Source: an uncultured cyanobacterium
GTDB lineage: Bacteria; Cyanobacteriota; Cyanobacteriia; PCC-6307; Cyanobiaceae
Assembly (NCBI GenBank): GCA_903871775.1
Contig: CAIQIA010000011.1
Location: 1-64,000 of the forward strand
DNA: 64,000 nt
Direction of reading: 5' to 3'
Shown one piece after another: positions 74 through 57,751 of this stretch (position 1 is the stretch's first letter; each line of letters starts with the position of its first letter). A program made the translations under genes and the position numbers. The notes under the pieces are model-generated. The model had not been told where the DNA came from and searched no databases. It worked only from the letters and a program-made list of their open reading frames with translations.

Positions 74-339
74 TGGGCGTCACCAGCAGCCGGGGCGGTG
101 GGGGCCGCCCCCAGCTGCCGGCCTTCTGCCGCACACGCCGGCCCACCACCGTGGCGGTCACACCCAGCAGCCTCGTCGGGCTGCGTGGCTTGGTGCTGCT
201 GGGGCTCCTCTTTCAGCTCAGCACCCTGCTGCTGCTGCTCGCCGGGCCGGTTTCGCCGCGGCCCGGGATCAGTGCCAACACCGCCATTCGCTCCGCCGTC
301 GCCGGTGGGAGTTCAGCCACACCGCTGTCAGACCGATGA
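73..339 (+). CDS. small membrane protein, unknown function
   Basis: Encodes 88 residues. The N-terminal 30 residues are basic (RGGGGR, RTRR); one strongly hydrophobic Leu-rich segment at about residues 34-58 looks like a single transmembrane helix, followed by a polar Ser/Ala-rich tail. Its ATG overlaps the stop of the SSB-like tail (TGATG at 71-75) and its stop overlaps the ATG of the KilA-N gene (ATGA at 336-339), so it sits in a translationally coupled run. I recognise no family. A holin-like or membrane-anchored accessory role would be a guess. The two perfect overlaps are the main reason to treat it as a gene rather than chance. Confidence 0.5.
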   Translation: MGVTSSRGGGGRPQLPAFCRTRRPTTVAVTPSSLVGLRGLVLLGLLFQLSTLLLLLAGPVSPRPGISANTAIRSAVAGGSSATPLSDR

Positions 340-1136
340 ACACCACAACCACCGGCTCCTTTCCTGTCAGTCCTCTCGCCTCGATGGATCACCCCGCTCT
401 GGTCTCCCGTTCCTGGAACGGCACTCCGATTTCTCGGCGCACCACCGATGGCTACGTCAATGCCACAGCTATGTGCAGGGCCAACGGCAAGCAATGGTCC
501 AAGTACCGAGAAAGCGACCGCTGCCAGACCTATCTCGATGCCCTGGCTGAAACCTCCGAAATTCGGATGTTTGACCTGATCGAGTCCCGCCAGGGCCAGG
601 GCGGCGGCACTTGGGTCCATCCCCAGGTCGCGGTCGACCTCGCCCGCTGGATCAGCGCACCGTTCGCGGTGTGGATGGACGGCTGGTTCCTGGAAAGCAT
701 CCAGCAGGCTCAGCCCGCTCCTGTAGACACGCCCGCACCTCGGCTCAGGGAGGCCGAGGTGATCGCTTTGGTGGAGCGCAGCATTGGCTTGTTCGAGCGG
801 CTGGGTGGACTGGATCAGCGCGACCAGCTCCTGTTCAAGGACATCGTCCGCAGCAACGTCCTCACTGCCAGTTCAGGACTGCTGCCCGGCACCCCCGCCG
901 ACGACGAACTGACTCTCAGCGATGCCTGGCTGGAGGTGTTCCAGGAAGTGCTGCCGCGTGCCAAGTACCGCTCGGCCGGGATGCTGGTGGCAGAGGCCTA
1001 CCGGACAGACTTTGGCCAGGAGCCGCCGCTTCGCCAGCAGTTCGTTGACGGGGCCCCGCGTCAGGTCAAGAGCTACCGACGCTCCTGGCTGATTGAGACC
1101 CTCAAGCGCTTCCGCGCCCAGCTGGCAGGAGGCTGA
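336..1136 (+). CDS. KilA-N domain protein
   Basis: Encodes 266 residues from the ATG at 336. A KilA-N DNA-binding domain spans roughly residues 25-122, with GYVNATAMCRANGK near 39-52, the middle WSKYRESD motif, and the closing WVHPQVAVDLARWISAPFA block near 93-112. KilA-N proteins occur in phages and mobile elements and bind DNA; many are antirepressor-like or of unknown role. The C-terminal 130 residues are helical and charged and match nothing I know. The frame is open upstream to base 9, but that extension is Pro/Arg/His-rich and out of frame with the small membrane gene, so 336 is preferred. The stop overlaps the next ATG (TGATG). Confidence 0.8.
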   Translation: MNTTTTGSFPVSPLASMDHPALVSRSWNGTPISRRTTDGYVNATAMCRANGKQWSKYRESDRCQTYLDALAETSEIRMFDLIESRQGQGGGTWVHPQVAVDLARWISAPFAVWMDGWFLESIQQAQPAPVDTPAPRLREAEVIALVERSIGLFERLGGLDQRDQLLFKDIVRSNVLTASSGLLPGTPADDELTLSDAWLEVFQEVLPRAKYRSAGMLVAEAYRTDFGQEPPLRQQFVDGAPRQVKSYRRSWLIETLKRFRAQLAGG

Positions 1137-1372
1137 TGGACACCACCACAACGCCAACCCGCCAGCGGGTCTGGGTCACAACAGCAGAAGCCTGTGAAGC
1201 ACTCGGTATGAGCCGTGAAACCCTCCGCCAGCTGCGGCTGCGGGGGGTGTTGCAAGCCGGCAAGCACTATCGACGCTGGGGCTGCACCCAGGGTCGGGGG
1301 CCCCTGCAGTGGCACCTGGAGAACGTTGAGGCCACGATCACCGCCTGGAGCAAAAAGAATCTGGGGAGATGA
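1136..1372 (+). CDS. small HTH protein, excisionase-like
   Basis: Encodes 78 residues. A MerR/excisionase-type helix-turn-helix is visible at about residues 14-42 (TTAEACEALGMSRETLRQL, then a GVLQAGKHY wing). Such small proteins in tyrosine-recombinase islands often serve as recombination directionality factors or local repressors. It overlaps the KilA-N stop and ends the rightward operon. Its first residues (MDTTTT) resemble those of the KilA-N protein (MNTTTT). Excisionase function is inferred from size, HTH type and an integrase 2 kb away; a transcription regulator is the alternative. Confidence 0.65.
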   Translation: MDTTTTPTRQRVWVTTAEACEALGMSRETLRQLRLRGVLQAGKHYRRWGCTQGRGPLQWHLENVEATITAWSKKNLGR

Positions 1373-1445: not shown

Positions 1446-1649
1446 TCAGTTGGCGCGATCCTGCCTCCACTTGGCCACTGAAACCGCAATTGTTGCGCCT
1501 ACGGCTGTGACCGCGAGACCAGTCAGGCCAAAGAATGCACCGCTGGCTGCTGCTCCCAAGATAAGGGCGGTTTTCGCATTCCTCTCGATCGCGCCTTTGC
1601 GAAGTGATCGGCGAATCCGTTGATATTCTTCGCTGTCAGGGAGGCTCAT
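1446..1649 (-). CDS. small glycine/alanine-rich membrane protein, third gene of island cassette
   Basis: Encodes 67 residues starting MSLPDSEEY. The N-terminal 27 residues are charged; residues about 28-60 form a hydrophobic Gly/Ala-rich segment (ALILGAAASGAFFGLTGLA), long enough for one helix or a hairpin, with small-residue spacing of the glycine-zipper kind. The ATG at 1649 lies four bases after the TAA of the upstream gene, typical of a coupled operon; a longer in-frame start at 1718 would overlap that gene by 65 bases and is less likely. No family recognised. Confidence 0.55.
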   Translation of the reverse strand: MSLPDSEEYQRIRRSLRKGAIERNAKTALILGAAASGAFFGLTGLAVTAVGATIAVSVAKWRQDRAN

Positions 1650-1653
1650 TTTG

Positions 1654-2463
1654 TTAATAGTCGCTGTGGACTGGAATGGGAACTCGATAGGCAACTGCTT
1701 GCTGGCCCTCGATCTCAATTGCTATGGGTTCAGCGTGGTGGACAAATGAATCGGCATACTTGTCCATCTCAATCGCCTGTTCTTTAGTGATCTTGCGTAT
1801 ACTTTCTAGCCTGATGGCGCTATCCGGCGCGGGATAGAGTTGATTGGCAAGAATCATGAAGTCATCCTGCTCAAACGTGTCCACCATTGCTTGTCGGCTG
1901 TCGTCTTGGAGGAAGCCACGAGCATGCTGATGCGCAAGGCCCAGTGGGACTAGATAGTCACCCCTGGGGCCCTGGTGATGATTAAAGATTAAAGGGGTTT
2001 GCCATCCCTCGCTGTACGCGATCACCCTTGATCGGGCTTGGCCTATCCGGCTTGCCAGTTCCATTGGCGATCCTGCAGTAACTATCCAGGCAGCCTTGCA
2101 CTTCTCTAGGAACTCCATTTGTTCGCGTGAGGCCACTTGGTGTCCAAGGCCTCCCAGGTTTGAAAAGGCTAGACCCATAAATACATCGCCGACATCGAAT
2201 CCGTCGCCTAGACCGAGCAGTCCTCCAATGATGGCCCCACCAATTCTCCAGGCCATCTGCTCGTCTTTGATTCGACGCTTCTCTTTTTCGACAATGGCCT
2301 GGAGGACGTCTTTTGATTGAAACGCATGGCCATTCTTTGCAAGCTGGACAAACTCAAAAGATTCGGGCACTGATGATGCCATTGGCTGCGTGTCGGAAGT
2401 GGTGGAGGAGCCCGCGCTGGGAGGGTTCAGTGATAGTTGGATGCTTTCGCTGAAGTCATTCAC
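1654..2463 (-). CDS. unknown 269-residue protein with glycine-rich hydrophobic segment
   Basis: The N-terminal 35 residues are Ser/Pro-rich and probably disordered; a charged KEKRRIKDEQ stretch precedes a Gly-rich hydrophobic region at about 72-108 (WRIGGAIIGGLLGLGDGF, then FMGLAFSNLGGLG). The remaining 160 residues look soluble. The glycine spacing resembles glycine-zipper segments that pack in membranes or form oligomers. Second gene of a leftward cassette, 37 bases after the metallopeptidase stop and 4 bases before the 67-residue gene. Base composition is far below that of the host core (25 of 60 G+C at 1741-1800), consistent with transfer. No known family recognised. Confidence 0.6.
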   Translation of the reverse strand: MNDFSESIQLSLNPPSAGSSTTSDTQPMASSVPESFEFVQLAKNGHAFQSKDVLQAIVEKEKRRIKDEQMAWRIGGAIIGGLLGLGDGFDVGDVFMGLAFSNLGGLGHQVASREQMEFLEKCKAAWIVTAGSPMELASRIGQARSRVIAYSEGWQTPLIFNHHQGPRGDYLVPLGLAHQHARGFLQDDSRQAMVDTFEQDDFMILANQLYPAPDSAIRLESIRKITKEQAIEMDKYADSFVHHAEPIAIEIEGQQAVAYRVPIPVHSDY

Positions 2464-2500
2464 TCTTGTATCGGTATTTAGGTCGAAGATAGGGGGTAGA

Positions 2501-3061
2501 TCACCCGAGAAGACCCTCTAGAAGCGGAGCATCCAAAGACGCCTGGAGGCTCGCTTCCAGTGGATCCAGGCCTTCTGCCACGTAGGAGACGGCAAGCTGC
2601 TGTTCAATTGGAGAAGCGGCTCGCATTAAAGTACTTTCGGGATTGTCAAGAGCATGTTCGGTGCTGTGGGCCTCCAGCTCCAATGCTTGGGTTCTTGGGT
2701 CAGATGTGGTGTAAGCAGTGCTAACAGCTTGAAATCCCTCAGCATTTACAGGAAGTCCAAGCGGCGACATTGATGAGTTGTCTAGACCATCTATCTCGTC
2801 TTGAAGCACATGGATGAACTCGTGCTCAAATGTCTCTATAAGCTGAATATTGTCAGACAGAGCAGGTGCGCCTATGGTCAGGACATTTGTTTCTGGATTA
2901 TAAGTCCCATACGCTCCCTGGAGTGAAGGCTCTAATACGATTTCGACGCCTTTGTCCCAGCAAGAGCGTATATAGCTCTCGATTGTTGAAAGCCCTTCTG
3001 AGCTCATGCCGTTGGCTCCAAGGCCAATGAGAAATTCATCCAATTCAGCACTTGTTTTCAT
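2501..3061 (-). CDS. HExxH zincin-type metallopeptidase of genomic island
   Basis: Encodes 186 residues. The motif FEHEFIHVLQDE carries HEFIH at residues 80-84, the classic zinc-binding and catalytic HExxH. An ELEAH segment at 128-132 offers a third ligand (Glu128 or Glu130), the arrangement seen in gluzincins such as ImmA/IrrE-like or DUF4157-like peptidases. No signal peptide is apparent, so it should act in the cytoplasm or be delivered by another route. First gene of a three-gene leftward cassette in low-GC island DNA. An AAGGG lies six bases before the ATG. Peptidase activity is strongly suggested by the motif; substrate and role (toxin, regulator cleavage, defence) are unknown. Confidence 0.7.
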   Translation of the reverse strand: MKTSAELDEFLIGLGANGMSSEGLSTIESYIRSCWDKGVEIVLEPSLQGAYGTYNPETNVLTIGAPALSDNIQLIETFEHEFIHVLQDEIDGLDNSSMSPLGLPVNAEGFQAVSTAYTTSDPRTQALELEAHSTEHALDNPESTLMRAASPIEQQLAVSYVAEGLDPLEASLQASLDAPLLEGLLG

Positions 3062-3300: not shown

Positions 3301-4545
3301 TCAGCTTGCCTGGAGGCGCTGCTCCGCCTTGGTGAAGGCGTCATCCACCACGTCATCCCCGCACCAGCGGCTGTAGGCCGCCAGGTGGGTCTGGACGCTG
3401 TGGCCCATGGCCGCGGCCACCACCTTGGGTGGTAGGTCGCAGATCACGTGGGCGCGGTGGGCGTAGCCGTGCCGGCAGGAGTAGGGCACGAGCTTCTCGC
3501 CCTTGGCTTCGTACTCCTGCCGCAGCTGGTTCCAGAGAGGGCGCCGGTGCAGGTACTGCCTGATGTCGTTGCCGCAGAAGCCGGAACGCATCGGAGGGAG
3601 ATCGGCAGGGCAGAACTGGTCGGCCAGCTTCCAGTTCGCTGCCCAGTCATCGCAGGGCAGGAGACGCAGGGCTCGAGGCTTGGTCTTGCCGCGGGAGGCC
3701 ACCTTTTCATAGGTGCACCACAGGCGCCCATCGCGCAGCTGCAGGTGCTGGAGCTCCTCGGGGCGCAATCCATAGGCGGCCATCAGCTGGAAAGCGAGTC
3801 GCCAACGCGGGTCGGGCAGGGCCTGTACCAACGCCAGGATGTGGCCCACTTCGAGGGGGGTGGTAATCGCTTTCGCGGAGCGTGACCGCCCCACGAAGGA
3901 GCTCAGGTCGGTTGGCGGCTCCCACCTGGCTGCTGCGAGTTCGCCCTGGGCCACCGCCCAGCGGAGCAGGGCAGAGGTGGCCTGCATCTGAATCTGCCGG
4001 GTGCGGCCCCCGGGTTTATCGGCCCAGTGCAGGGTGAGCCGATCCAGCAGCTGGGTGGCGCTTTGGGGCGGGTGACGGCTGACGAAGGCATCCAGCACAT
4101 GCTTCATGTGGTGGCGATGCACCCTTGTCCAGGTCGACTCCTTGATCTCGCCAGTGCGGATTTTGTACTCTCGATACCGCTCAATCAGCACATTCCAGTC
4201 TGTTTGCTGTTCAGAAACTGCCTTTTGGGTGTCAGAAGTCCTGGTATCTGATTCGCTTCCTGATGTATAGGTGATTGTCTTTGCCGCCTGTTCTGGTTCT
4301 ATTCCGCTGCTGAAGTCGTCATAGATCTTGCAAACAGCTGCGCCAATCTTCTTGGCGTTGTCGAAGTGCCAGGGGATCGGAAGTTGTATCTGACGCCGCT
4401 TGCCGCCGCCCGCTTTGGCGGTGATGTTGAGCCTGGCGAAGCCTCGGTGCTCTGTGAGCGCCCAGCCCCTTGGACATCCCTTGCGGGACAAGGCGTGAGC
4501 GGTTTCGACGCGGATGGCGATCTCCCAGGGGGCTGCCTCAGCCAT
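3301..4545 (-). CDS. tyrosine recombinase (integrase) of tRNA-Gly island
   Basis: Encodes 414 residues. Tyrosine-recombinase catalytic residues are visible: Arg261 in AAYGLRPEEL, basic residues near 287-291, Arg358 in YSCRHG, His382 in AMGHS and the nucleophile Tyr391 in LAAYSRW. The first position of the usual HxxR box is Tyr (YSCR). Residues about 117-210 look like the SAM-like core-binding domain; the N-terminal 60 residues resemble an arm-binding region. The gene starts 127 bases from the 3' end of tRNA-Gly(CCC) and points away from it, a common arrangement for an integrase at the attL end of a tRNA-integrated element. It should catalyse integration and excision of the island extending leftward. 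Confidence 0.9.
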   Translation of the reverse strand: MAEAAPWEIAIRVETAHALSRKGCPRGWALTEHRGFARLNITAKAGGGKRRQIQLPIPWHFDNAKKIGAAVCKIYDDFSSGIEPEQAAKTITYTSGSESDTRTSDTQKAVSEQQTDWNVLIERYREYKIRTGEIKESTWTRVHRHHMKHVLDAFVSRHPPQSATQLLDRLTLHWADKPGGRTRQIQMQATSALLRWAVAQGELAAARWEPPTDLSSFVGRSRSAKAITTPLEVGHILALVQALPDPRWRLAFQLMAAYGLRPEELQHLQLRDGRLWCTYEKVASRGKTKPRALRLLPCDDWAANWKLADQFCPADLPPMRSGFCGNDIRQYLHRRPLWNQLRQEYEAKGEKLVPYSCRHGYAHRAHVICDLPPKVVAAAMGHSVQTHLAAYSRWCGDDVVDDAFTKAEQRLQAS

Positions 4546-4671: not shown

Positions 4672-4705
4672 AGCGGGTGACCGGACTCGAACCGGCGACG
4701 TTCAG
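4672..4705. other. predicted attachment-site region (3' half of tRNA-Gly)
   Basis: Tyrosine integrases usually recombine within the anticodon-to-acceptor half of a tRNA gene, restoring it on integration. The integrase beside this 3' end makes the T-arm/acceptor segment the likely attL core. I found no second copy in bases 1-4600, so the other boundary must lie left of the window if this is right. Confidence 0.35.
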
Positions 4706-4743
4706 CTTGGGAAGCTGACATTCTACCACTGAATTACACCCGC
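4672..4743 (-). tRNA. tRNA-Gly (anticodon CCC)
   Basis: Reverse-strand cloverleaf of 72 nt: acceptor stem GCGGGTG pairs with CACCCGC, followed by a T discriminator. The anticodon stem TCAGC/GCTGA closes a TTCCCAA loop with anticodon CCC, decoding GGG. The T-arm carries GGTTCGAGTCC. No CCA is encoded. The integrase gene lies just beyond the 3' end, so this gene is the probable attachment target of the island. Confidence 0.95.
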
Positions 4744-4799
4744 ATTCCTCAACCCTAGCAGCGGGCCTCCGATGGTGCCGGAGACCCGCTGCCCCTGGG

Positions 4800-5993
4800 T
4801 CAGCCCTGCTGCAGCACCGCCGCCGCCGCGGCCACCCCGGCCCCCGGCTGGGCGGGCGGCCGGCCGAGTTCCACCAGCGCCCCTTCAATGGCGGCCACAG
4901 CCACCAGCACGTCGCGATCCGCCACAAAGCCCAGGTGACCGATGCGGAACACCTTGCCCTTGAGATGGTCCTGGCCGCCCGCCAGCAGGATGTCGTAGCG
5001 GCTCTTGACCACCTTGCGCACGGCCTCGGCATCCAGGCCATCGGGGGCCACGGCGGTGATGGCGGGACTGCTGCATTCAGCGGAGGCATAGAGCGGCAGG
5101 CCGATGGCCTCCATGGCCGCACGGGTGGCGCGGCGATGGCGGTCATGGCGGGCGAAGATCGCCTCCAGGCCTTCCTCCTGCATGATCGCCATCGAGGCCT
5201 CGAGGGCGAAGTAGAGGTTCACCGCCGGCGTAAAGGGGTTGCTGTTGTCTTCAGCCGCTTTTCTGTACTTCGCCAGATCGAGATAGAACTTCGGCAGGTC
5301 CGATCGCTCCCGGGCGGCCCACGCCCGTTCGCCCATGGCCACGAAGCCGAGGCCGGGGGGGATCATGTAGCCCTTCTGGCTGCCCGAACCCACCACATCA
5401 AGGCCCCAGGCGTCAACGGGCACCGAGGTCGCCCCCAGGCTGGTGACCGCATCCACGATGATCAGCGCCTCGCCATGGGCCTTGACGTGGCGGTTGATGG
5501 TATCCAGGTCGTTGATCACCCCGGTGGAGGTCTCGGAATGGGTGAGGATCACCGCCTTGATCGCCTTCTCCCGGTCGGCCTCGAGGGCCTCGCGGAACGC
5601 CTCCGGATCCAACGGCTGGCCCCACTCGGCGCGGATGGTGTGAACGTCGAGGCCATAGGCCTTCGCCACCTTCACCCAGCGTTCACCGAACTTGCCGTTG
5701 TCACCGCACAGCACCCGATCACCGCGGCTGAGCACGTTGATGATGCCGGCCTCCATGGCCGCCGTGCCGCTGCCGGCCAGCACCAGCACCGATCCGCGGG
5801 TCTGGTGCAGCCACTGCAGCTGCTCGGTGGTGCGGGCGACGATCTTCTGGAAATCGGCGCTGCGATGGCCGATGGGATGACGGCCCAGGGCGACCAGCGC
5901 CGACTCCGGCACGGGCGTGGGTCCGGGGATCATCAGCTGCAACTTGTCCTTCATGCCCGCGATCGGGTCGCCCCCGGCTGGTGGATCATTCAC
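4800..5993 (-). CDS. class V aminotransferase (alanine/serine-glyoxylate type)
   Basis: Encodes 397 residues of a PLP-dependent class V aminotransferase. The N-terminal LMIPGPTPVPE signature, substrate-side GSGTAAMEA near 74-82, PLP-ring Asp181 (IIVDAVTS) and the Schiff-base Lys207 in GSGSQKGYM are visible. The closest known group is alanine/serine-glyoxylate aminotransferase, once called the soluble hydrogenase 42-kDa subunit in cyanobacteria; it should recycle photorespiratory glyoxylate to glycine. The chosen ATG has AAGGTGA directly in front; an alternative ATG at 5954 (MKDKLQLM) fits family length about equally well. The Ala-rich C-terminal tail is unusual. It is transcribed away from cbiD. 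Confidence 0.88.
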   Translation of the reverse strand: MNDPPAGGDPIAGMKDKLQLMIPGPTPVPESALVALGRHPIGHRSADFQKIVARTTEQLQWLHQTRGSVLVLAGSGTAAMEAGIINVLSRGDRVLCGDNGKFGERWVKVAKAYGLDVHTIRAEWGQPLDPEAFREALEADREKAIKAVILTHSETSTGVINDLDTINRHVKAHGEALIIVDAVTSLGATSVPVDAWGLDVVGSGSQKGYMIPPGLGFVAMGERAWAARERSDLPKFYLDLAKYRKAAEDNSNPFTPAVNLYFALEASMAIMQEEGLEAIFARHDRHRRATRAAMEAIGLPLYASAECSSPAITAVAPDGLDAEAVRKVVKSRYDILLAGGQDHLKGKVFRIGHLGFVADRDVLVAVAAIEGALVELGRPPAQPGAGVAAAAAVLQQG

Positions 5994-50205: not shown

Positions 50206-50697
50206 TTGACCGTCTTCGAAGGACGCTTCACCGACACGGCCGGTCTGCGGATCGGCGTTGTGGTGGCGCGATTCAATGACCTGGTGACCGGCCGGCTGCT
50301 CAGCGGCTGCCTCGACTGCCTGAGCCGCCATGGCATCGACGTGGGCCCCCAGAGCCCGCAGCTCGATGTGGCCTGGGTGCCAGGCAGCTTCGAGATTCCC
50401 CTCGTGGCCCAGCAGCTGGCCCGCAGCGGCCGCTACGACGTGCTGGTGACCCTGGGTGCCGTGATCCGGGGCGACACCCCCCACTTTGATGTGGTGGTGT
50501 CAGAGGTGAGCAAGGGGGTGGCCGCCGTCAGCCGCGACGTCGGGGTGCCGGTGATCTTCGGCGTGCTCACCACCGACACCATGCAGCAGGCCCTCGAACG
50601 GGCCGGCATCAAGAGCAACCTGGGCTGGAGCTACGGGCTGCAGGCCCTCGAGATGGGCAGCCTGATGGGGGCACTGGCGTCCGCGGGTGGGCACTGA
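50206..50697 (+). CDS. ribH: 6,7-dimethyl-8-ribityllumazine synthase
   Basis: Encodes 163 residues from a [16 protein letters not shown], the [10 protein letters not shown] motif, [13 protein letters not shown] with catalytic His, and the closing [17 protein letters not shown] match RibH. It makes lumazine for riboflavin; the capsid-forming family size fits. Starts 4 bases after psbZ. Confidence 0.96.
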
Positions 50698-51862
50698 AGG
50701 GGCCACAGTCCAACGCGGACGGCTGATGCAGCTGACCCGGGAATGGCCCCCGGGCTACGGCGGCGTGGAGCGCATGGTCCATGCGGTGGCCGAGGGTTGG
50801 CAAGAGCTGGGGGCCGCCAGCGTCAGCGTCAGCCTCCGCGGTCCGGCAAAGCACGTGGATGAGGATCCGCTGCCCGTGGCCTACGAGCGTCACCGTGTCG
50901 TGACCTGGGCCTGGGGCGATCTGCTGCTGCCGTTGCCCTGCCGTTCCCTGGTGCAGCTGCTGTGGTCATCCGACCCGTTGCTGGTGCATCTGCCCTGTCC
51001 CACGGTGCTGCTGCTGGCGGTGCTGGCACGGTTGCTGCGGCCCCGGCGTCGGATTGCAGCCCTCTGGCACGCCTTTCTGGACGCCGACGGATCGCGTTGG
51101 ACAGGGACGCTGCTCGTCATCTACCAGAGGATGGCACTCGCCTGGATCCGCCGGGGTCCGAAGCCCGTGATCAGCACCTCAGAGCCCTTGTGCAAAGAGC
51201 TGGGGGAGACAGGGGTGCGGGCCGAGGTGCTGGCGCTTTTGCCGTGCTGCCTGGAACCCAGGTCGGAGGCGATGGCGACGGCGGCCTGGGAGAAACGCCT
51301 GCAGGCCGGCCTCAGCCCGAGTCGCCATGGGCGGGTGATCTTCATCGGCCGGCTGGAGAGCTACAAGCGCGTGGACTGGCTGATGGAGGCCTGCCGGCAG
51401 GTCGGCATCGGTCAGCTGGACGTCGTCGGGGAAGGAAGCCAGCGTCGACGGCTGGAGTGGCTGGCTGACCAACAGACAACAGGCGGTGGCGATCCGCCGG
51501 CGATCCGCTTTCACGGCAGGCTGCAGGAATCAGACAAATTTGCACTTCTGGCCCAGGCAGATCTGCTGGTGTTGCCCTCGGCGTCGTGCCATGAGGCCTT
51601 CGGCATCGTTCAGCTGGAAGCCATGGCCTGTGGTGTTCCCGCCCTGAGTTTCGATCGCCAGCGCTCAGGAATGGCGTGGGTCAACAACCTCCGGGAGGGC
51701 AGCACCGTGCCCCCGAGGCGATGGGAGGATCTGGGAGCCGCGATTCAGACCGTCCTGAATCCGGATGGGTATGCCAGCCGCTGTGAAGGCTGCCGTCAAC
51801 GGTTCAACAGGGTGTTCTCCCGTACAGTCTGGCGGCAGCGCCTGCAGAAGCTCGACCTGTGA
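50687..51862 (+). CDS. GT4 glycosyltransferase, start of polysaccharide cluster
   Basis: Encodes 391 residues from a GTG overlapping the ribH end; an ATG at 50726 would cut the first strand ([16 protein letters not shown]), so GTG is preferred. GT-B fold donor motif [16 protein letters not shown] gives the E-x7-E pair, preceded by [16 protein letters not shown]4-type transferases add sugars to lipid-linked glycans. Next gene overlaps by 4 bases (GTGA). Its GC is lower than that of ribH before it, marking the cluster boundary. Confidence 0.82.
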
Positions 51863-52965
51863 CGGTGCTGACGAACCTGCTGTCCTACATCCCCGGAGCG
51901 TCAGGGTTCAGCAGCTACATCCGTCGTGTCCTCCCAGGGATTCCAGGGCCACGCCTGCTGATTGATCCAGAGACCAACAACTGCCGCTGCCAGCTGGAGA
52001 ACGACCTTCCCCAGACTGCACCCACGGGCAGGCGGCTCAGGCTGCTGCAGCGGCTGTCGCTGGCCCAACACGGCGTGGATCCCCGCAGGGCTGTGGACGA
52101 AGCCCTGCGAACAGGGCTGCTGCACGACCTCCCCGATGTGGTGTACAGCCCCTTCTGTGATGCCCTGCTCGGATGGAAAGGGGCCCCACAGGTCATCACG
52201 TGCCATGACCTCACACCGCTGTACATCTCCAACAGTCGCAAGGCGACGTGGCGCTATCGCCTGTGGACGCCGAGACACCTGAAATGCGCAACGCGCATCA
52301 TCGCCATCAGTCAGTTTGTGGCCGATCAGCTGGTCTCCCATGGCGTTCGCGCCAACCAGGTAGACATTGTTCTTAATGGCATAGCTGTCGAGCGTTCTGC
52401 AGTTGGTACGGCCACCAGCGAAGACATTGTGATCCTGGCCCGCCATGATCGAAACAAGAACGTCGCCGGAGCCATCGAAGCGCTGAACCATCTGCAGACA
52501 ACGGGGTCAGCCTGGCGAGGCCGCATGATCGTGGTCGGACGCCATGGGCGCCAAACTGATGATCTGCGTCGGAGACAGCAGCTGTTGCCAAGGCCAGACG
52601 CATTGGTGATGGTGAATCATCTCAGCCATGACGATCTGATTGAGCTGATCCGTGGGGCATGGCTACTGGCATCGTTCAGCCGAATGGAGGGATTTGATTA
52701 CCCGATCATGGAGGCCAAGGCCGAGGGGATCCCAACCTTGGTGAGCGCGATTCCTGTGCATCGCGAACTGCACCATGGGAGCTCGCTGTTCTTTCAGCTC
52801 GATGATGGTGGACAAAGCTTCGCTGAAGCAGTGGAACGGCTGCGCGTGGAGCAATCCCTATGGGGTGAACTGGGAGCCGCAGGCAGAAGCCTGGCTGTTA
52901 AGCTTTCACTCGAACGTCAGCAGGCTCAGATCCGGGAGGCCATCGACGCATGCAGACAGTCGTAG
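51859..52965 (+). CDS. GT4 glycosyltransferase
   Basis: Encodes 368 residues from a GTG ([16 protein letters not shown]). Characteristic TCHDLTPLYISNS in the N-domain and AISQFVADQLVSHG, then VLARHDRNKNV, and MEGFDYPIMEAKAEGIPT as E-x7-E donor loop. Resembles mannosyl- or rhamnosyltransferases of O-antigen clusters. Overlaps the previous gene by 4 bases and the wzt-like gene by 16 bases. Confidence 0.8.
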   Translation: MTVLTNLLSYIPGASGFSSYIRRVLPGIPGPRLLIDPETNNCRCQLENDLPQTAPTGRRLRLLQRLSLAQHGVDPRRAVDEALRTGLLHDLPDVVYSPFCDALLGWKGAPQVITCHDLTPLYISNSRKATWRYRLWTPRHLKCATRIIAISQFVADQLVSHGVRANQVDIVLNGIAVERSAVGTATSEDIVILARHDRNKNVAGAIEALNHLQTTGSAWRGRMIVVGRHGRQTDDLRRRQQLLPRPDALVMVNHLSHDDLIELIRGAWLLASFSRMEGFDYPIMEAKAEGIPTLVSAIPVHRELHHGSSLFFQLDDGGQSFAEAVERLRVEQSLWGELGAAGRSLAVKLSLERQQAQIREAIDACRQS

Positions 52966-53699
52966 AATCTGACGATGTGTGGCTGCGGATCCCCGTCTGG
53001 ACGACGGAAACCAGAAGCCTCAAAAACGTCCTCTTGAGATCCGTGACAGGTGGCGCCTTGCGTCGGTCTTCGACGGGGGCCGAAGTTGAGGCCCTGCGAG
53101 GTGTGACCTGTCGAATCTGCAGCGGCGAGCGCGTGGCGTTGATTGGCCACAATGGTGCAGGCAAGTCAACATTTCTCAAGCTGGTATCAGGCATCTACAC
53201 AGCCACCTCCGGTCGGCTGAAAGCCTATGCGACAGTTCACCCGATGATTCAGAAGAGTTTCATCACGAGTCCAGAGCTCAGTGGTGTTCAGGCCGTGAAA
53301 GCGCATTACCTGCTGGTCAGAGGCAACCTCAAAGGCTTTCGACCCTTTCTTGAGGAGGTCGTCAGTTTTTCGGGTCTCGGTGATTTCATTCATCTCCCTG
53401 TCAAGGGCTACAGCGAAGGAATGGCTGCACGTTTGTTGTTTTCCGTCCTCACAGGGTTTCAGCACGAATGCCTGGCCCTGGATGAAGGGTTTGGAGCTGG
53501 AGACAGCCAGTTCCAGGGTCGAGCACAGGAACGCATGCGAGAGTTCATTGACGGCGCTGGAACCCTGATCATGGCCTCGCATTCAGACGAGCTGCTCAGG
53601 CAGTTCTGCCAACGGGGACTGGTCTTTGACCAGGGACGCATCGTCTGCGATGCCGACCTGGGTACTGCACTGGACTTTTACCATGAACACCGTGCGTGA
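52950..53699 (+). CDS. polysaccharide ABC exporter ATP-binding protein (Wzt-like)
   Basis: Encodes 249 residues. Walker A GHNGAGKST (66-74), signature-type YSEGMAARL, Walker B LALDEGFGAGD and switch His in MASHSDELL are present. Absence of a C-terminal carbohydrate-binding domain suggests the short Wzt/KpsT type. It drives export of a lipid-linked glycan with the next gene. Overlaps that gene by 17 bases. Confidence 0.88.
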   Translation: MQTVVESDDVWLRIPVWTTETRSLKNVLLRSVTGGALRRSSTGAEVEALRGVTCRICSGERVALIGHNGAGKSTFLKLVSGIYTATSGRLKAYATVHPMIQKSFITSPELSGVQAVKAHYLLVRGNLKGFRPFLEEVVSFSGLGDFIHLPVKGYSEGMAARLLFSVLTGFQHECLALDEGFGAGDSQFQGRAQERMREFIDGAGTLIMASHSDELLRQFCQRGLVFDQGRIVCDADLGTALDFYHEHRA

Positions 53700-54468
53700 C
53701 ACGATTCGGGATGCCTGGAAGTCGCGTCGTGTCTGGTGGTTCACCGCCACCGCACGAACGAGGGCACGCTTCGCCAGAACGATGCTCGGCAGTTTCTGGC
53801 TTGGGTTCTCCAATCTTCTGTCAATTGGGACCTTGGCTGCCGTCTATGGAACTGTTTTCAAGGTTTCAGACTTCAGACATTATGTCGTTTACCTTGGCAT
53901 CAGCCTGGTGATCTGGAACTCGCTTTCAGCCAGCATCAGCTCTGCCCCAAACCTGCTGGAGCACAACACCAACCACCTCAAGAACACAAACCTCAATCCG
54001 TTTTTTTACGTACTTGAGGAATGGTCCTTTCACCTGCAGACATTTTTCCAGTCATTCTTTCTTGTCATCCTTGTTTTGTCCTTTGTGAAGGGTCAGATTG
54101 TCATTAATCTGCTCACCCTCGGGTGGCTGCCCCTCTTTAATCTGCTCGTGTTCATGCTATGGCTGCCAATGGTGGTTTGCCTTCTGGGCGCTCGCTACAG
54201 GGATCTTTATCAGTTGGTACCTATTGTTCTGCAGCTTGTTTTCCTGCTCTCACCAATTCTTTACTACAGAGAGAGCCTTGGCCGCTTTGGATGGTCGGCA
54301 GACTGGAATCCAATTTATCAGATAATCGGTCCAATGAGAGAAGCCATGATGCATGGACACCTCGAGCTTCATAAAGTCTTGGCAATGCTTTTTGTCAATC
54401 TTGTCGGAATGGTGGTCGCCTTAAAACTGCTGCAACGTGAGCGACCATACCTGCCATTCTTGATTTAA
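53683..54468 (+). CDS. polysaccharide ABC exporter permease (Wzm-like, ABC-2)
   Basis: Encodes 261 residues from the ATG at 53683 (MNTVRDTIRDAWKSR), which avoids a 60-base longer overlap. ABC-2 permease with about six helices; LGSFWLGFSNLL near the start and the ARYRDLYQLVPIVLQL and LYYRESLG segments are typical of KpsM/Wzm. Pairs with the ATPase before it. Much lower GC than core genes, consistent with horizontal exchange. Confidence 0.87.
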   Translation: MNTVRDTIRDAWKSRRVWWFTATARTRARFARTMLGSFWLGFSNLLSIGTLAAVYGTVFKVSDFRHYVVYLGISLVIWNSLSASISSAPNLLEHNTNHLKNTNLNPFFYVLEEWSFHLQTFFQSFFLVILVLSFVKGQIVINLLTLGWLPLFNLLVFMLWLPMVVCLLGARYRDLYQLVPIVLQLVFLLSPILYYRESLGRFGWSADWNPIYQIIGPMREAMMHGHLELHKVLAMLFVNLVGMVVALKLLQRERPYLPFLI

Positions 54469-54594
54469 AGAGTGGACGGCCTGGTCCTTTGCCTTCTATT
54501 TAAAATATCATTATGAGATTATTGTTATTGAAGAGATGAGCCTCGACAGAGGCAAGCCTTTGCATGATAGGCTTATTCAGCTTTACGGCAACCA
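54469..54594 (+). promoter_or_regulatory. AT-rich spacer before the 505-residue gene
   Basis: Only 18 of 60 bases are G or C at 54481-54540, the lowest I counted in the window. Several TATTTA/TTATTG-type runs could serve as -10 boxes, but no clear -35/-10 pair is seen. A short hairpin (GCCTC/GAGGC, 54540-54553) is present. It probably holds a promoter or an acquired-DNA junction. Confidence 0.35.
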
Positions 54595-56112
54595 ATGGAT
54601 GACGCGTTTTGGTCAGAGGCGGCTGCAGCAATCAACGCACTGCCACGGCTGAGGAGAGTCGTCGGCCCCAAAGGGCTTGAGAATAAGATCAGCAATGCTT
54701 CCTATTGTAATTACGATCAATATGAAGGGGCATGGAGACCGGACTGCTGGATCTTGCATCGAGGATTGGCAGATGAATGGCCAGAACACATCCGCCGGAA
54801 ACTAAAGAATAAGCAGTTTGCAATTATCTGGTCTAACGATGTCTTTTCAATAGTCAAGACGAGACTTTTTGGATGGCCCTCAACCAAGTCACAAGATGCA
54901 GATGACAACCAAGTACGTCACTTGCATGAAGTCATTGCGAAGATCTCCTTGGTCAAAGCAGCCAATCACAGGAGCGGGGGGAAGACGTCGTTAACGTTTG
55001 CACCCATACACGATCAACGCTATGCGCTTGACAGCCTGATTCGCCGACTTTTGGACGTGAAAGGGTGGGAATCAGCTGATTCGCCAAATACCTCGGCAAC
55101 GGGAGAGTTGGCGAGAGATCTGCAAATCATGAAAGCCAACATCAAGGCCTTGGCATGGCAAGTTGAAAGGCTTGAGTCGCCGCCCAGTCTTGAATGGACT
55201 CCCCTCAAAGAGGCCGTGAAAGTCAATACAAGTCCTGTTCAGCCGACCTGTCGACTGTGCAGTTCCCAAGACATTTATTCGCCATGGCACAGGCAACTGT
55301 CGGCATCATTGCGCTCGAGTAACTATAAGCTTCGAAAGATATGGGAGTGGACGTATACTATTCAAGTGCTTTACGATCAGGGATTTCTTCAACAGGGATC
55401 ATCAGGGCTTGGGTTTGGATGCGGCACTGAGCCACTGGCCAGCTGTTTTGCCAATTTTGTTGATGAGCTACTGATTACTGATGCGCCGCCTCACATCATT
55501 GAAGGAAAGGGATGGTCAGATACAAATCAGCATACCGCCAACCTTGAGCAGGCAAAGCATGAATTGCTCGCAACGCGTGAGTCAATGGACAGGACAATGA
55601 AATTTGAATTCGCTGATATGAATAATATTTCACGTGACTATTTTGATCGATTCAGCTTTGTCTGGTCGTCTTGTGCCTTGGAGCATCTTGGATCAAAGCA
55701 GCTTGGCCTGACCTTCATTGTCCAGTCAGCTCAGTGCCTCAAGCCGGGGGGGTTGGCTGTACATACAACTGAATTCGACTTGTCTGGCGAATCTACAATC
55801 GATCACTGGGAAACAGTTTTGTTTAACGCAGATGATTTCCAGATAACACTGAAAAGCATGCTGGATGGCCTGAACAACGATGGCAGTGGTCGACGATTTG
55901 AGCTCTGCCCGTTTGATTTACAACGAGGAACTGCATTTTTGGATGGCTATGTCGACATTCCCCCTTACAGCTATCACAAAGGGCTTAATGATTCCTTCCA
56001 GCCTGTTTCGCCACCGAAAGACACCTCTATTTATCCGTACCCACAGGTCAACCTTTCTGTAGACGGCTTCCCATGCACATCTATAGCCATTCTGGTGAGG
56101 CGGGTTGCTTGA
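54595..56112 (+). CDS. 505-residue protein with C-terminal SAM methyltransferase domain
   Basis: The N-terminal 210 residues are soluble, with no motif I recognise. A CRLCSS pair lies near 219, then a methyltransferase domain from about 265: motif I SGLGFGCGTEPLAS (about 268-281), followed by DEWLLITDAPP-like acidic strand (visible LLITDAPP), and FSFVWSSCALEHLGS near 355-370, which resembles the motif IV region of Methyltransf_11-type enzymes. It sits between the exporter and a GT4, so it may modify the glycan. The start has no Shine-Dalgarno; the bases CAACCA precede this ATG, as they do the next gene's. Confidence 0.65.
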   Translation: MDDAFWSEAAAAINALPRLRRVVGPKGLENKISNASYCNYDQYEGAWRPDCWILHRGLADEWPEHIRRKLKNKQFAIIWSNDVFSIVKTRLFGWPSTKSQDADDNQVRHLHEVIAKISLVKAANHRSGGKTSLTFAPIHDQRYALDSLIRRLLDVKGWESADSPNTSATGELARDLQIMKANIKALAWQVERLESPPSLEWTPLKEAVKVNTSPVQPTCRLCSSQDIYSPWHRQLSASLRSSNYKLRKIWEWTYTIQVLYDQGFLQQGSSGLGFGCGTEPLASCFANFVDELLITDAPPHIIEGKGWSDTNQHTANLEQAKHELLATRESMDRTMKFEFADMNNISRDYFDRFSFVWSSCALEHLGSKQLGLTFIVQSAQCLKPGGLAVHTTEFDLSGESTIDHWETVLFNADDFQITLKSMLDGLNNDGSGRRFELCPFDLQRGTAFLDGYVDIPPYSYHKGLNDSFQPVSPPKDTSIYPYPQVNLSVDGFPCTSIAILVRRVA

Positions 56113-56271
56113 CGCGTTCTTTATCCTGTACCTCGCATTACCTTCAGATGGACATACGTGCGGCCCAATCTACTCCACAGGCCGGCGGAACTGGCGAACT
56201 CAGTTTTGCGTACATTAATTGCAAGCTGGCTGCAGGAAACTGCGCCGCAGGTTCCAACTCACTGACAACCA

Positions 56272-57651
56272 ATGCCTGTCATCCTTAACACCTCTGAGCT
56301 ATTTCGCTACCAAGGAAGCGGAATCAAGTCTTTCACCCAGTCACTTTTACGTTCCACCCATGATTTGACACCCTTTGAGTTCCTTTTGGAGTCCAAAAGG
56401 AAAGAACGCGACAGCATTCTTGCCCACACCAACCTTTTTCATGTGCATCGTGGCAGCGCCGGGAGGGCAGAAGTCTTTAAACGCGAAATCAAACAGTCTT
56501 TCAGTCACTATATCCCTGGCAGGTCAGAATACAAAGCACCAATTATTAGCCGGCTAGATCCCTTGTATTCATTGGCCCTTTCGCGGATACCAGTAGACGC
56601 CAAGGAAGATAAAACAAGTAGTTTTTCTTTTCGTTCAAGCCAACATCTCTACAGCAATTCCCAGGTTGAGTTCGTCCGAACAGGGCAATGTTCAGAGGTT
56701 TCTTTCCCGGATCTGACAAGCCGGCAAGCCAATCAGTTTGTCTTCCATAATCCATTGCCATTTCCCTTGGTGGCTGCGGACATACCCATGATCGTGACGG
56801 TGCATGACTTGATTCCCCTGTCTCACTCAGAATTATGTCTGGATGATCCTGGACGGTTCTATGAACTTCTCAGCATTCAGACCGAGAAAGCAGCTGCAGT
56901 GCATGCCATCAGCCATACAACCGGCGACTTATTAATAAAGGTATTTGGAAATCGCGTGCGCTCCAAGCTCAAGGTCGTTCAACAAGCATTGGTGATGCCA
57001 GCCTGCTCAGAAGAGCAGGAGGAAGAACTCGTCAAAGCCAAGCTTCATTTGTTTGATGCTTTCCACCGCAACGCCGAGGGCCACTCACTCCTGCAACTGG
57101 GGACACTCGAACCGAAAAAAAACCACATCACAACCCTGGAAGTTCATCGCCTCCTTCGCCGTAAGTTCCCTGGTCTCAAACTGCTGATCATCGGCAAGGC
57201 CGGCTGGCTCTGCGAAGATCTGCTCGACACCCTCTCATCCCGCAGCGGGGAAGGGGTCGAATGGCTGCGGTCGGCACCCCGATCCAGCGTACGGTGGCAT
57301 CTCAACAACAGCCTCGCCCTGATGTTTCCCTCCCTTGTTGAAGGCTGGGGGCTTCCTCCCATTGAGGCCATGGCCCTCGGGACGCCGGCGGTCTGCTCCA
57401 GCATTCCAGCCTGTCAGGAGGCCTGCGGAGACGGCGCCGCTGGGATGGCCGATCCCCATGACGTGGCAGCGTTCGCCGAACTCCTCACCGAGCTCCTGAC
57501 CGACCGGGAGCGCTATGCCACGGCTGTCCGGGCAGGCCTGCGCCAGGCCCGTCTCTACAGCGAGGCCCGGTTCCGGAACGAACTCAGGGACCTCTACAGC
57601 AGCGTGCTGTCGGGGGGGGGAATTGACCAAGAGCCCCCCTGTGGTGCATGA
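56272..57651 (+). CDS. GT4 glycosyltransferase, last gene of polysaccharide cluster
   Basis: Encodes 459 residues. VTVHDLIPLSHSELC and VHAISHTTGDLLI form the N-domain; LLQLGTLEPKKNHIT and the donor loop EGWGLPPIE (E357 and E365) lie in the C-domain. GC rises sharply through the C-terminal third, so the gene may straddle a composition boundary. The 159-base gap before it holds no gene I trust. Ends 28 bases before tRNA-Gly(GCC). Confidence 0.85.
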   Translation: MPVILNTSELFRYQGSGIKSFTQSLLRSTHDLTPFEFLLESKRKERDSILAHTNLFHVHRGSAGRAEVFKREIKQSFSHYIPGRSEYKAPIISRLDPLYSLALSRIPVDAKEDKTSSFSFRSSQHLYSNSQVEFVRTGQCSEVSFPDLTSRQANQFVFHNPLPFPLVAADIPMIVTVHDLIPLSHSELCLDDPGRFYELLSIQTEKAAAVHAISHTTGDLLIKVFGNRVRSKLKVVQQALVMPACSEEQEEELVKAKLHLFDAFHRNAEGHSLLQLGTLEPKKNHITTLEVHRLLRRKFPGLKLLIIGKAGWLCEDLLDTLSSRSGEGVEWLRSAPRSSVRWHLNNSLALMFPSLVEGWGLPPIEAMALGTPAVCSSIPACQEACGDGAAGMADPHDVAAFAELLTELLTDRERYATAVRAGLRQARLYSEARFRNELRDLYSSVLSGGGIDQEPPCGA

Positions 57652-57679: not shown

Positions 57680-57751
57680 GCGGATGTAGCTCAGTGGTAG
57701 AGCATCTCCTTGCCAAGGAGAGGGTCGAGAGTTCGAATCTCTTCATCCGCT
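57680..57751 (+). tRNA. tRNA-Gly (anticodon GCC)
   Basis: Cloverleaf of 72 nt: acceptor GCGGATG pairs with CATCCGC, T discriminator; anticodon stem CTCCT/AGGAG region with loop TTGCCAA, anticodon GCC (decodes GGC/GGU); T-arm GAGTTCGAATCTC. No encoded CCA. It borders the polysaccharide cluster. The opposite-strand GNAT gene ends inside its acceptor stem. Confidence 0.96.

Follow-up and report, generated by a model that had tools for sequence, protein, structure and literature searches.

A HExxH peptidase beside a conserved two-gene core on a picocyanobacterial tRNA island: a candidate protease-switched, membrane-directed module

The window discussed here is a stretch of 64,000 nucleotides that makes up the start of contig 11 in a 2.57-Mb genome of 27 contigs, picocyanobacterial to judge by its relatives, and close to the window's left edge lie three genes, all read on the reverse strand. 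The first, at 2501..3061, encodes a HExxH metallopeptidase of 186 aa from an ATG start; it is followed after 37 bp by a gene at 1654..2463 for a protein of 269 aa with a GTG start, which we call the partner, and after another 4 bp by one at 1446..1649 for a small membrane protein of 67 aa, again with an ATG start. These places and spacings confirm what a first-pass annotation had read from the letters of the DNA, and its description of the cassette as low in G+C also holds (0.518, the window as a whole having 0.669). Roughly 5% of stretches of the same length reach so low a value; the ones listed map to the cassette itself and to the region from ~53 kb on, a second low-GC cluster. The cassette genes lie leftward of a tyrosine integrase gene (3301..4545, reverse strand; phrog_1 integrase match, 1.3e-20), which, in keeping with the tRNA-integrated island of that annotation, abuts a tRNA gene, namely a tRNA-Gly(CCC) at 4672..4743 on the reverse strand that is the presumed integration site. 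To the left of the cassette, on the opposite strand, come an HTH_17/excisionase-like gene (1136..1372; PF12728, 5.8e-8) and a KilA-N domain gene (336..1136; PF04383, 5.3e-20), and then the contig ends; because the window begins at a contig end, the element runs off the contig and the island's far end is outside our view.

Two further regions of this genome deserve a brief mention. The second low-GC stretch (window 50687-57651) holds what by eye are glycosyltransferase and ABC-type polysaccharide export genes, is probably a surface-polysaccharide cluster, and ends at a tRNA-Gly(GCC) at 57680-57751. In addition, the end of contig C18 (G000:C18 ~75262-75333, locus L070) carries a second tRNA-Gly(CCC), accompanied by a related integrase of which the N-terminal portion is present. 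On its chromosomal 5' side this copy has the same flank as the window tRNA (window 4672-4804). We rejected it as the simple other end of the island, since a full tRNA-Gly copy, another integrase and a shared chromosomal flank point to a tandem or alternative insertion at the same site.

The peptidase has an intact predicted active site. Its HEFIH motif (2810..2824, reverse strand; residues 80-84) supplies the predicted zinc ligands H80 and H84 and the catalytic base E81, and an ELEA motif further on (2669..2680, reverse strand; residues 128-131) supplies E128, by analogy with gluzincins the predicted third zinc ligand; none of the four residues varies among four close homologues and two distant relatives from the same genome (alignments A3 and A5). 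The AF2 model (pTM 0.48) finds its best fold matches in the minigluzincins 4jix and 4qhi, the ImmA/IrrE-type proteins 6cyy and 3dti, and the SprT protein 6mdw. We take the protein for a gluzincin, most likely of the minigluzincin/ImmA-IrrE/SprT-like kind. Like the minigluzincins (jannalysin, abylysin, selecase) and the ImmA/IrrE and SprT-like families, it has the small HExxH-plus-Glu layout of a gluzincin. The match to jannalysin has a probability of 0.99 with a Foldseek E of only 0.02, a TM below 0.5 and a modest model pTM of 0.48, and the Pfam scores fall short of their cut-offs (18.1 bits against 27 for DUF6782, 14 against 25.6 for SprT-like). The first-pass annotation recognised no known family in any of the three proteins, and indeed none scores above a Pfam or NCBIfam cut-off or matches PADLOC (anti-phage defence), although the peptidase does have these nearest neighbours among the minigluzincins and ImmA/IrrE-type proteins, and relatives in its own genome. 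The latter (G000:C7:136365-136652 and C2:64603-64917, loci L002 and L003) have 251 and 238 aa, a hydrophobic N-terminus and the pattern HExxHVAQ...E-x-E-A; no partner is seen alongside them, and they point to a wider, unnamed cyanobacterial HExxH family.

The C-terminal tail of the peptidase (2504..2629, reverse strand; ...GLDPLEASLQASLDAPLLEGLLG) is modelled as a hairpin of two helices with a pLDDT of ~78. It is found in two of the four peptidases, the short-tailed enzymes of genomes G124 and G398 giving no tail match, and in three further genomes (G168, G163 and G375) it is encoded alone, by a short ORF that immediately precedes the partner and occupies the place where the peptidase would otherwise be. 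This placement hints at a contact between the tail and either the partner or the small protein. The tail-only ORFs are at L012:8217-8396, L013:5131-5310 and L046 ~1944-2105, all at CHAT-linked loci.

The partner consists of N-terminal helices, a Gly-rich segment and a C-terminal alpha/beta domain with the conserved ending P-x-H-S-D-Y/F. Its AF2 model (pTM 0.70) is confident for the C-terminal domain (pLDDT ~90), shows a long helix towards the N-terminus and is of low confidence in the Gly-rich segment. No PDB or BFVD (viral) fold matches it at E<=0.001, its sequence matches no PDB chain, and Pfam gives no CARF or SAVED match. A gasdermin, or indeed any known fold, was considered and set aside for want of a sequence match or a fold match at that threshold: neither Pfam nor PADLOC links the partner to gasdermins, and none is present among the 50 PDB fold matches listed. 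The Gly-rich, glycine-zipper-like segment (WRIGGAIIGGLLGLGDGFDVGDVFMGLAFSNLGGLGHQ; 2137..2250, reverse strand, ~residues 72-109) keeps G76, G80, G84, D87, G88 and D93 invariant across 11 homologues; in the window copy no 19 residues exceed a mean hydrophobicity of 1.3, too low for a classical TM helix, and the Pfam glycine-zipper models (PF13488/PF13441) do not match the window partner and reach only sub-cut-off scores in its relatives (best E 0.0024). The 67-aa protein is, just as had been proposed, a membrane protein by its one clear hydrophobic stretch (mean 1.9), and it is a reasonable supposition that the partner inserts in the membrane conditionally, with the help of this small protein. 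Two Gly-rich ORFs of 76/77 aa upstream of the partner in L012/L013 were wrongly taken for the small protein; the real homologue immediately follows the partner. Searches of phage records and viral contigs with the window's proteins, and of plasmids with its partner, gave no match; they yielded neither phage nor viral copies of the module, and a phage or plasmid origin of these proteins was set aside.

How widely is the cassette conserved? The partner was searched for in whole genomes of the order and the family and then more widely in cyanobacteria, and with the window genome counted it occurs in 7 of 400 family genomes at E <1e-50, with a divergent copy in G153 besides (a match in G059 at E 6e-4, which falls opposite an ABC-F-like ATPase gene, was dropped). 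Peptidase, partner and small protein are present together in four picocyanobacterial genomes from three genera, and the three frames are intact ORFs in the other genera, with ~34-60% identity for the peptidase, the partner and the nearer small proteins. The gene order, whose loss in relatives the first-pass annotation would have taken as a refutation, is kept in three genomes, namely the window's own, G398 (where the genes overlap) and G300; in G124 (L011) it is permuted to partner, small protein, peptidase. A peptidase profile run against the 400 family genomes picks out the four cassette genomes at E <1e-80 and then only distant relatives at ~1e-8, which means that among these genomes the close form of the peptidase occurs only with the partner, and always next to it. 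The chance that all four peptidase genomes would be among the seven partner genomes of 400 is ~3e-8, adjacency uncounted, a figure that overstates the case since the genomes share ancestry and are not independent.

The partner is followed by the small protein, with no peptidase, in G168, G163, G375 and G153, and distant copies of the partner occur in other cyanobacterial families, in G515, G532 (split across two frames), G522 (two copies) and G774; contig G522:C3 matches a plasmid of Picosynechococcus sp. PCC 7003, and a copy on plasmid pAQ6 of PCC 7002 is 95% identical. Across all 14 loci, which are few and phylogenetically related and thus not independent, the small protein lies directly downstream of the partner every time (at the 12 loci where the gap was measured it runs from -56 to +36 bp), and the peptidase is missing from 10. 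The partner and the small protein form a fixed unit and the peptidase is replaceable; the three-gene unit that had been put forward is real in four genomes, but it is the pair that is constant. We are in very little doubt that the pair, with the peptidase where there is one, forms a functional module. In the partner tree, where several forks are poorly supported and G153 sits on a long branch, the peptidase-bearing copies are one clade (87/100) beside the CHAT-linked picocyanobacterial copies, and CHAT-linked copies appear in both deep branches.

A third gene follows the small protein in G515, G532, G522 and PCC 7002, at L042:8874-9251, L043:7217-7555, L044:6988-7365 and L071:9947-10285, and encodes 112-125 aa with an HNH-like pattern recognised by eye (HIYPQS...NN...N-x-x-RG, or more fully DISHIYPQS...LNNVFLEDP..N.ARG); no Pfam model matches it. 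The idea of a docking hairpin common to its N-terminus and the peptidase tail, both of which contain GLDP, was abandoned (hhalign E 0.12, probability 0.5%).

The company that this pair keeps is telling, and supports the defence-like setting suspected at first reading, in that relatives of the partner adjoin CHAT proteases, type III-B CRISPR genes or a STAND-like ATPase. CHAT (caspase-like) protease genes lie beside the pair or within ~5 kb of it at 7 of the 14 loci. G168, G163, G153 and G300 each have, collinear with the cassette, a TPR-CHAT or CHAT gene whose His/Cys motifs are intact, and the two or three CHAT genes that each of these genomes possesses are all at the cassette locus; in G375 a CHAT-type gene is ~3 kb off, and in G515 and at the second PCC 7003 copy the distance is 4.6-5.4 kb. 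Among the genes flanking the partner in G300, G163, G168 and G375 are some of the CHAT-CHASE2 type. The G515 partner has DUF1822, CHAT-CHASE2, DUF928 and TPR-CHAT genes within 16 kb, and the His/Cys dyad is present in its CHAT neighbour, but CHAT genes abound in the larger cyanobacterial genomes (G515 has 8), which makes the link at this locus less remarkable. No CHAT gene adjoins the window copy, the only one of its genome being on another contig, and in the single-contig genome G124, which carries peptidase, partner and small protein, no CHAT gene was found, as one would predict for a peptidase that takes the place of CHAT.

At two of the 14 loci, on pAQ6 (genes SYNPCC7002_RS14925, RS14920 and RS14915) and on the plasmid of the closely related strain PCC 7003, the pair is directly upstream of a type III-B cas10, the cassette being placed between cas1/cas2 with a CRISPR array on one side and cas10-cmr3-cmr4 on the other. 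No known protease is directly beside the pair at these Picosynechococcus loci, where the HNH-like third gene is found instead. At one further locus, in G774, the pair is divergent from an NB-ARC/AAA (STAND-like) ATPase gene. Finally, three loci are in integrative elements, and all three (the window, G124 and G398) have the HExxH peptidase; for three of the four peptidase-bearing loci, this agrees with the island setting to which the first-pass annotation pointed. The G124 island has restriction-modification genes and, beside a tRNA-Ser, a recombinase-like gene assigned by eye, for which Pfam and PHROG gave no match; in G398 a terminase, an integrase and a primase adjoin the cassette copy; and in G300 the peptidase adjoins CHAT genes, with no element genes seen on its 13-kb contig. 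In and near the G124 island there are also, by eye, Nif11/ProcA-like lanthipeptide precursor genes (L011:1203-1775 and L077:1047-1319). Taking these neighbourhoods together, we consider it probable that the module works in conflict or programmed cell death.

Our preferred reading, which we hold tentatively, sees in the cassette the mobile form of a protease-switched, membrane-directed conflict module of cyanobacteria that would act in abortive infection or cell death. The core of such a module would be the Gly-rich partner with its alpha/beta C-terminal domain plus the small membrane protein, and an adjoining protease, here the minigluzincin-like HExxH enzyme and elsewhere a TPR-CHAT caspase-like one, would switch the partner, by cutting it, by taking an inhibitor away or in some other manner. 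The switch might be thrown on detection of an infection or of some other intruder, upon which the Gly-rich segment of the partner, and the small protein with it, would insert in the membrane and so stop the cell, possibly as a form of phage defence. A role for the protease as switch is proposed because one two-gene unit is paired with varied proteases and sensors, just as in gasdermin operons, and proteolysis as the mechanism is a possibility that we offer with some reserve. Some observations sit uneasily with the whole: three CHAT-linked loci keep only the tail of the peptidase as a short peptide, which a simple swap of proteases leaves unexplained, and the partner is without a recognised fold and offers no predictable cleavage site, its Gly segment being only marginally hydrophobic.

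It is those tail peptides that suit a rather different arrangement, in which the pair is a membrane toxin harmful by default, which the peptidase or the tail peptide degrades or binds, such that the toxin would be released once the island is lost or the peptidase comes under attack. A short upstream ORF is what one might expect of a binding or inhibitory factor, and residence on mobile islands would suit addiction; we nevertheless think this unlikely, since the tail is not universal (G124 and G398 do without it), CHAT linkage better fits activation, and PCC 7002 has no annotated peptidase alongside its pair. CHAT genes are of course common in cyanobacteria and mostly uncharacterised, so the pair could instead be a stress- or envelope-related set of membrane proteins that is processed by proteases in normal physiology and has nothing to do with defence. 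The patchy distribution (strong matches in 7 of 400 family genomes), the location on mobile islands and plasmids, and the CRISPR and STAND neighbours make this unlikely as well.

A regulatory role of the ImmA/IrrE type has also to be weighed. ImmA cleaves the repressor of ICEBs1, the fold matches include IrrE (3dti) and a regulator from M. tuberculosis (6cyy), and the island holds HTH and KilA-N regulators, all of which would accord with a peptidase that cleaves an island repressor and controls excision, the pair being accessory cargo. Such a role is improbable in view of the way the peptidase tracks the partner across different elements and, in G300, adjoins CHAT genes on a contig without visible element genes; nor does a helix-turn-helix repressor gene consistently accompany it. 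Least probable of all is counter-defence, whereby mobile elements would block or mis-trigger resident CHAT, STAND or CRISPR systems with the partner as decoy substrate: in its favour, most of the copies with a peptidase sit on integrative elements, CHAT-linked ones look resident, and the partner sequences from these two sets form sister groups, yet G124 holds the mobile form without any CHAT gene.

Returning to the protease-switched module, how does it compare with what is already known? The setting of its mobile copies recalls tycheposons and picocyanobacterial phage satellites, given a tRNA-adjacent recombinase gene (in G124 recombinase-like, by eye) with cargo in the window and in G124, and the primase, terminase and integrase next to the G398 copy; for the window the likeness is one of integrase/tRNA layout. 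Predicted cyanobacterial conflict or cell-death systems with CHAT-CHASE2 (EACC2-caspase), DUF1822 and ECF sigma genes (PMC8195603) are matched, as far as the parts of that account considered here go, by the DUF1822, CHAT-CHASE2, DUF928 and TPR-CHAT set of G515, and in those parts the partner and the small protein are not among the components described. The picocyanobacterial loci differ from these systems in that DUF1822 is weak (E 0.004, L012) or absent (L013 and L028), and the window copy differs by its lack of a CHAT neighbour. CHAT proteases are also gated by RNA-guided sensing, in type III-E Craspase, where Cas7-11 is joined by TPR-CHAT (PMC9729208), and in type III SAVED-CHAT effectors (PMC11229360), and the placement of the pair upstream of type III-B cas10 on two plasmids is reminiscent of this. 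However, the two III-B loci have no annotated Cas7-11, the stretches examined around them contain no CHAT gene, and with cas10 linkage at 2 of 14 loci only and no Pfam match of the partner to a CARF/SAVED sensor the pair does not qualify as a type III ancillary effector.

A close parallel is with bacterial gasdermin operons, where one membrane effector is found beside interchangeable CHAT/C14 caspase-like, Peptidase U49 or trypsin-like proteases (PMC9612521). Our module shares the effector gene next to interchangeable proteases, CHAT included, and the proposed protease-triggered action on membranes, and it differs in its constant second small membrane protein and in that cleavage is, for the partner, only a proposal. 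The organisation of protease plus membrane effector is of a known kind, and in the mostly open-access literature covered we found no description of this effector family, its small companion or the interchange of metallopeptidase and CHAT; a search for CHAT with gasdermins or glycine zippers in cyanobacteria likewise turned up nothing on the pair. A bolder proposal, and to us a rather doubtful one, is that the pair represents a new, non-gasdermin class of protease-gated membrane death effector, repeatedly paired with CHAT, type III-B CRISPR and a STAND-like ATPase, in which a metallopeptidase replaces the caspase on mobile islands. Because one copy sits on pAQ6 of the laboratory strain Synechococcus (Picosynechococcus) sp. 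PCC 7002, the module offers a tractable test, and if our preferred reading is true it would furnish a candidate substrate for the CHAT (caspase-like) proteases of cyanobacteria and, alongside the gasdermins and unrelated to them, a second kind of protease-controlled membrane effector in bacterial immunity.
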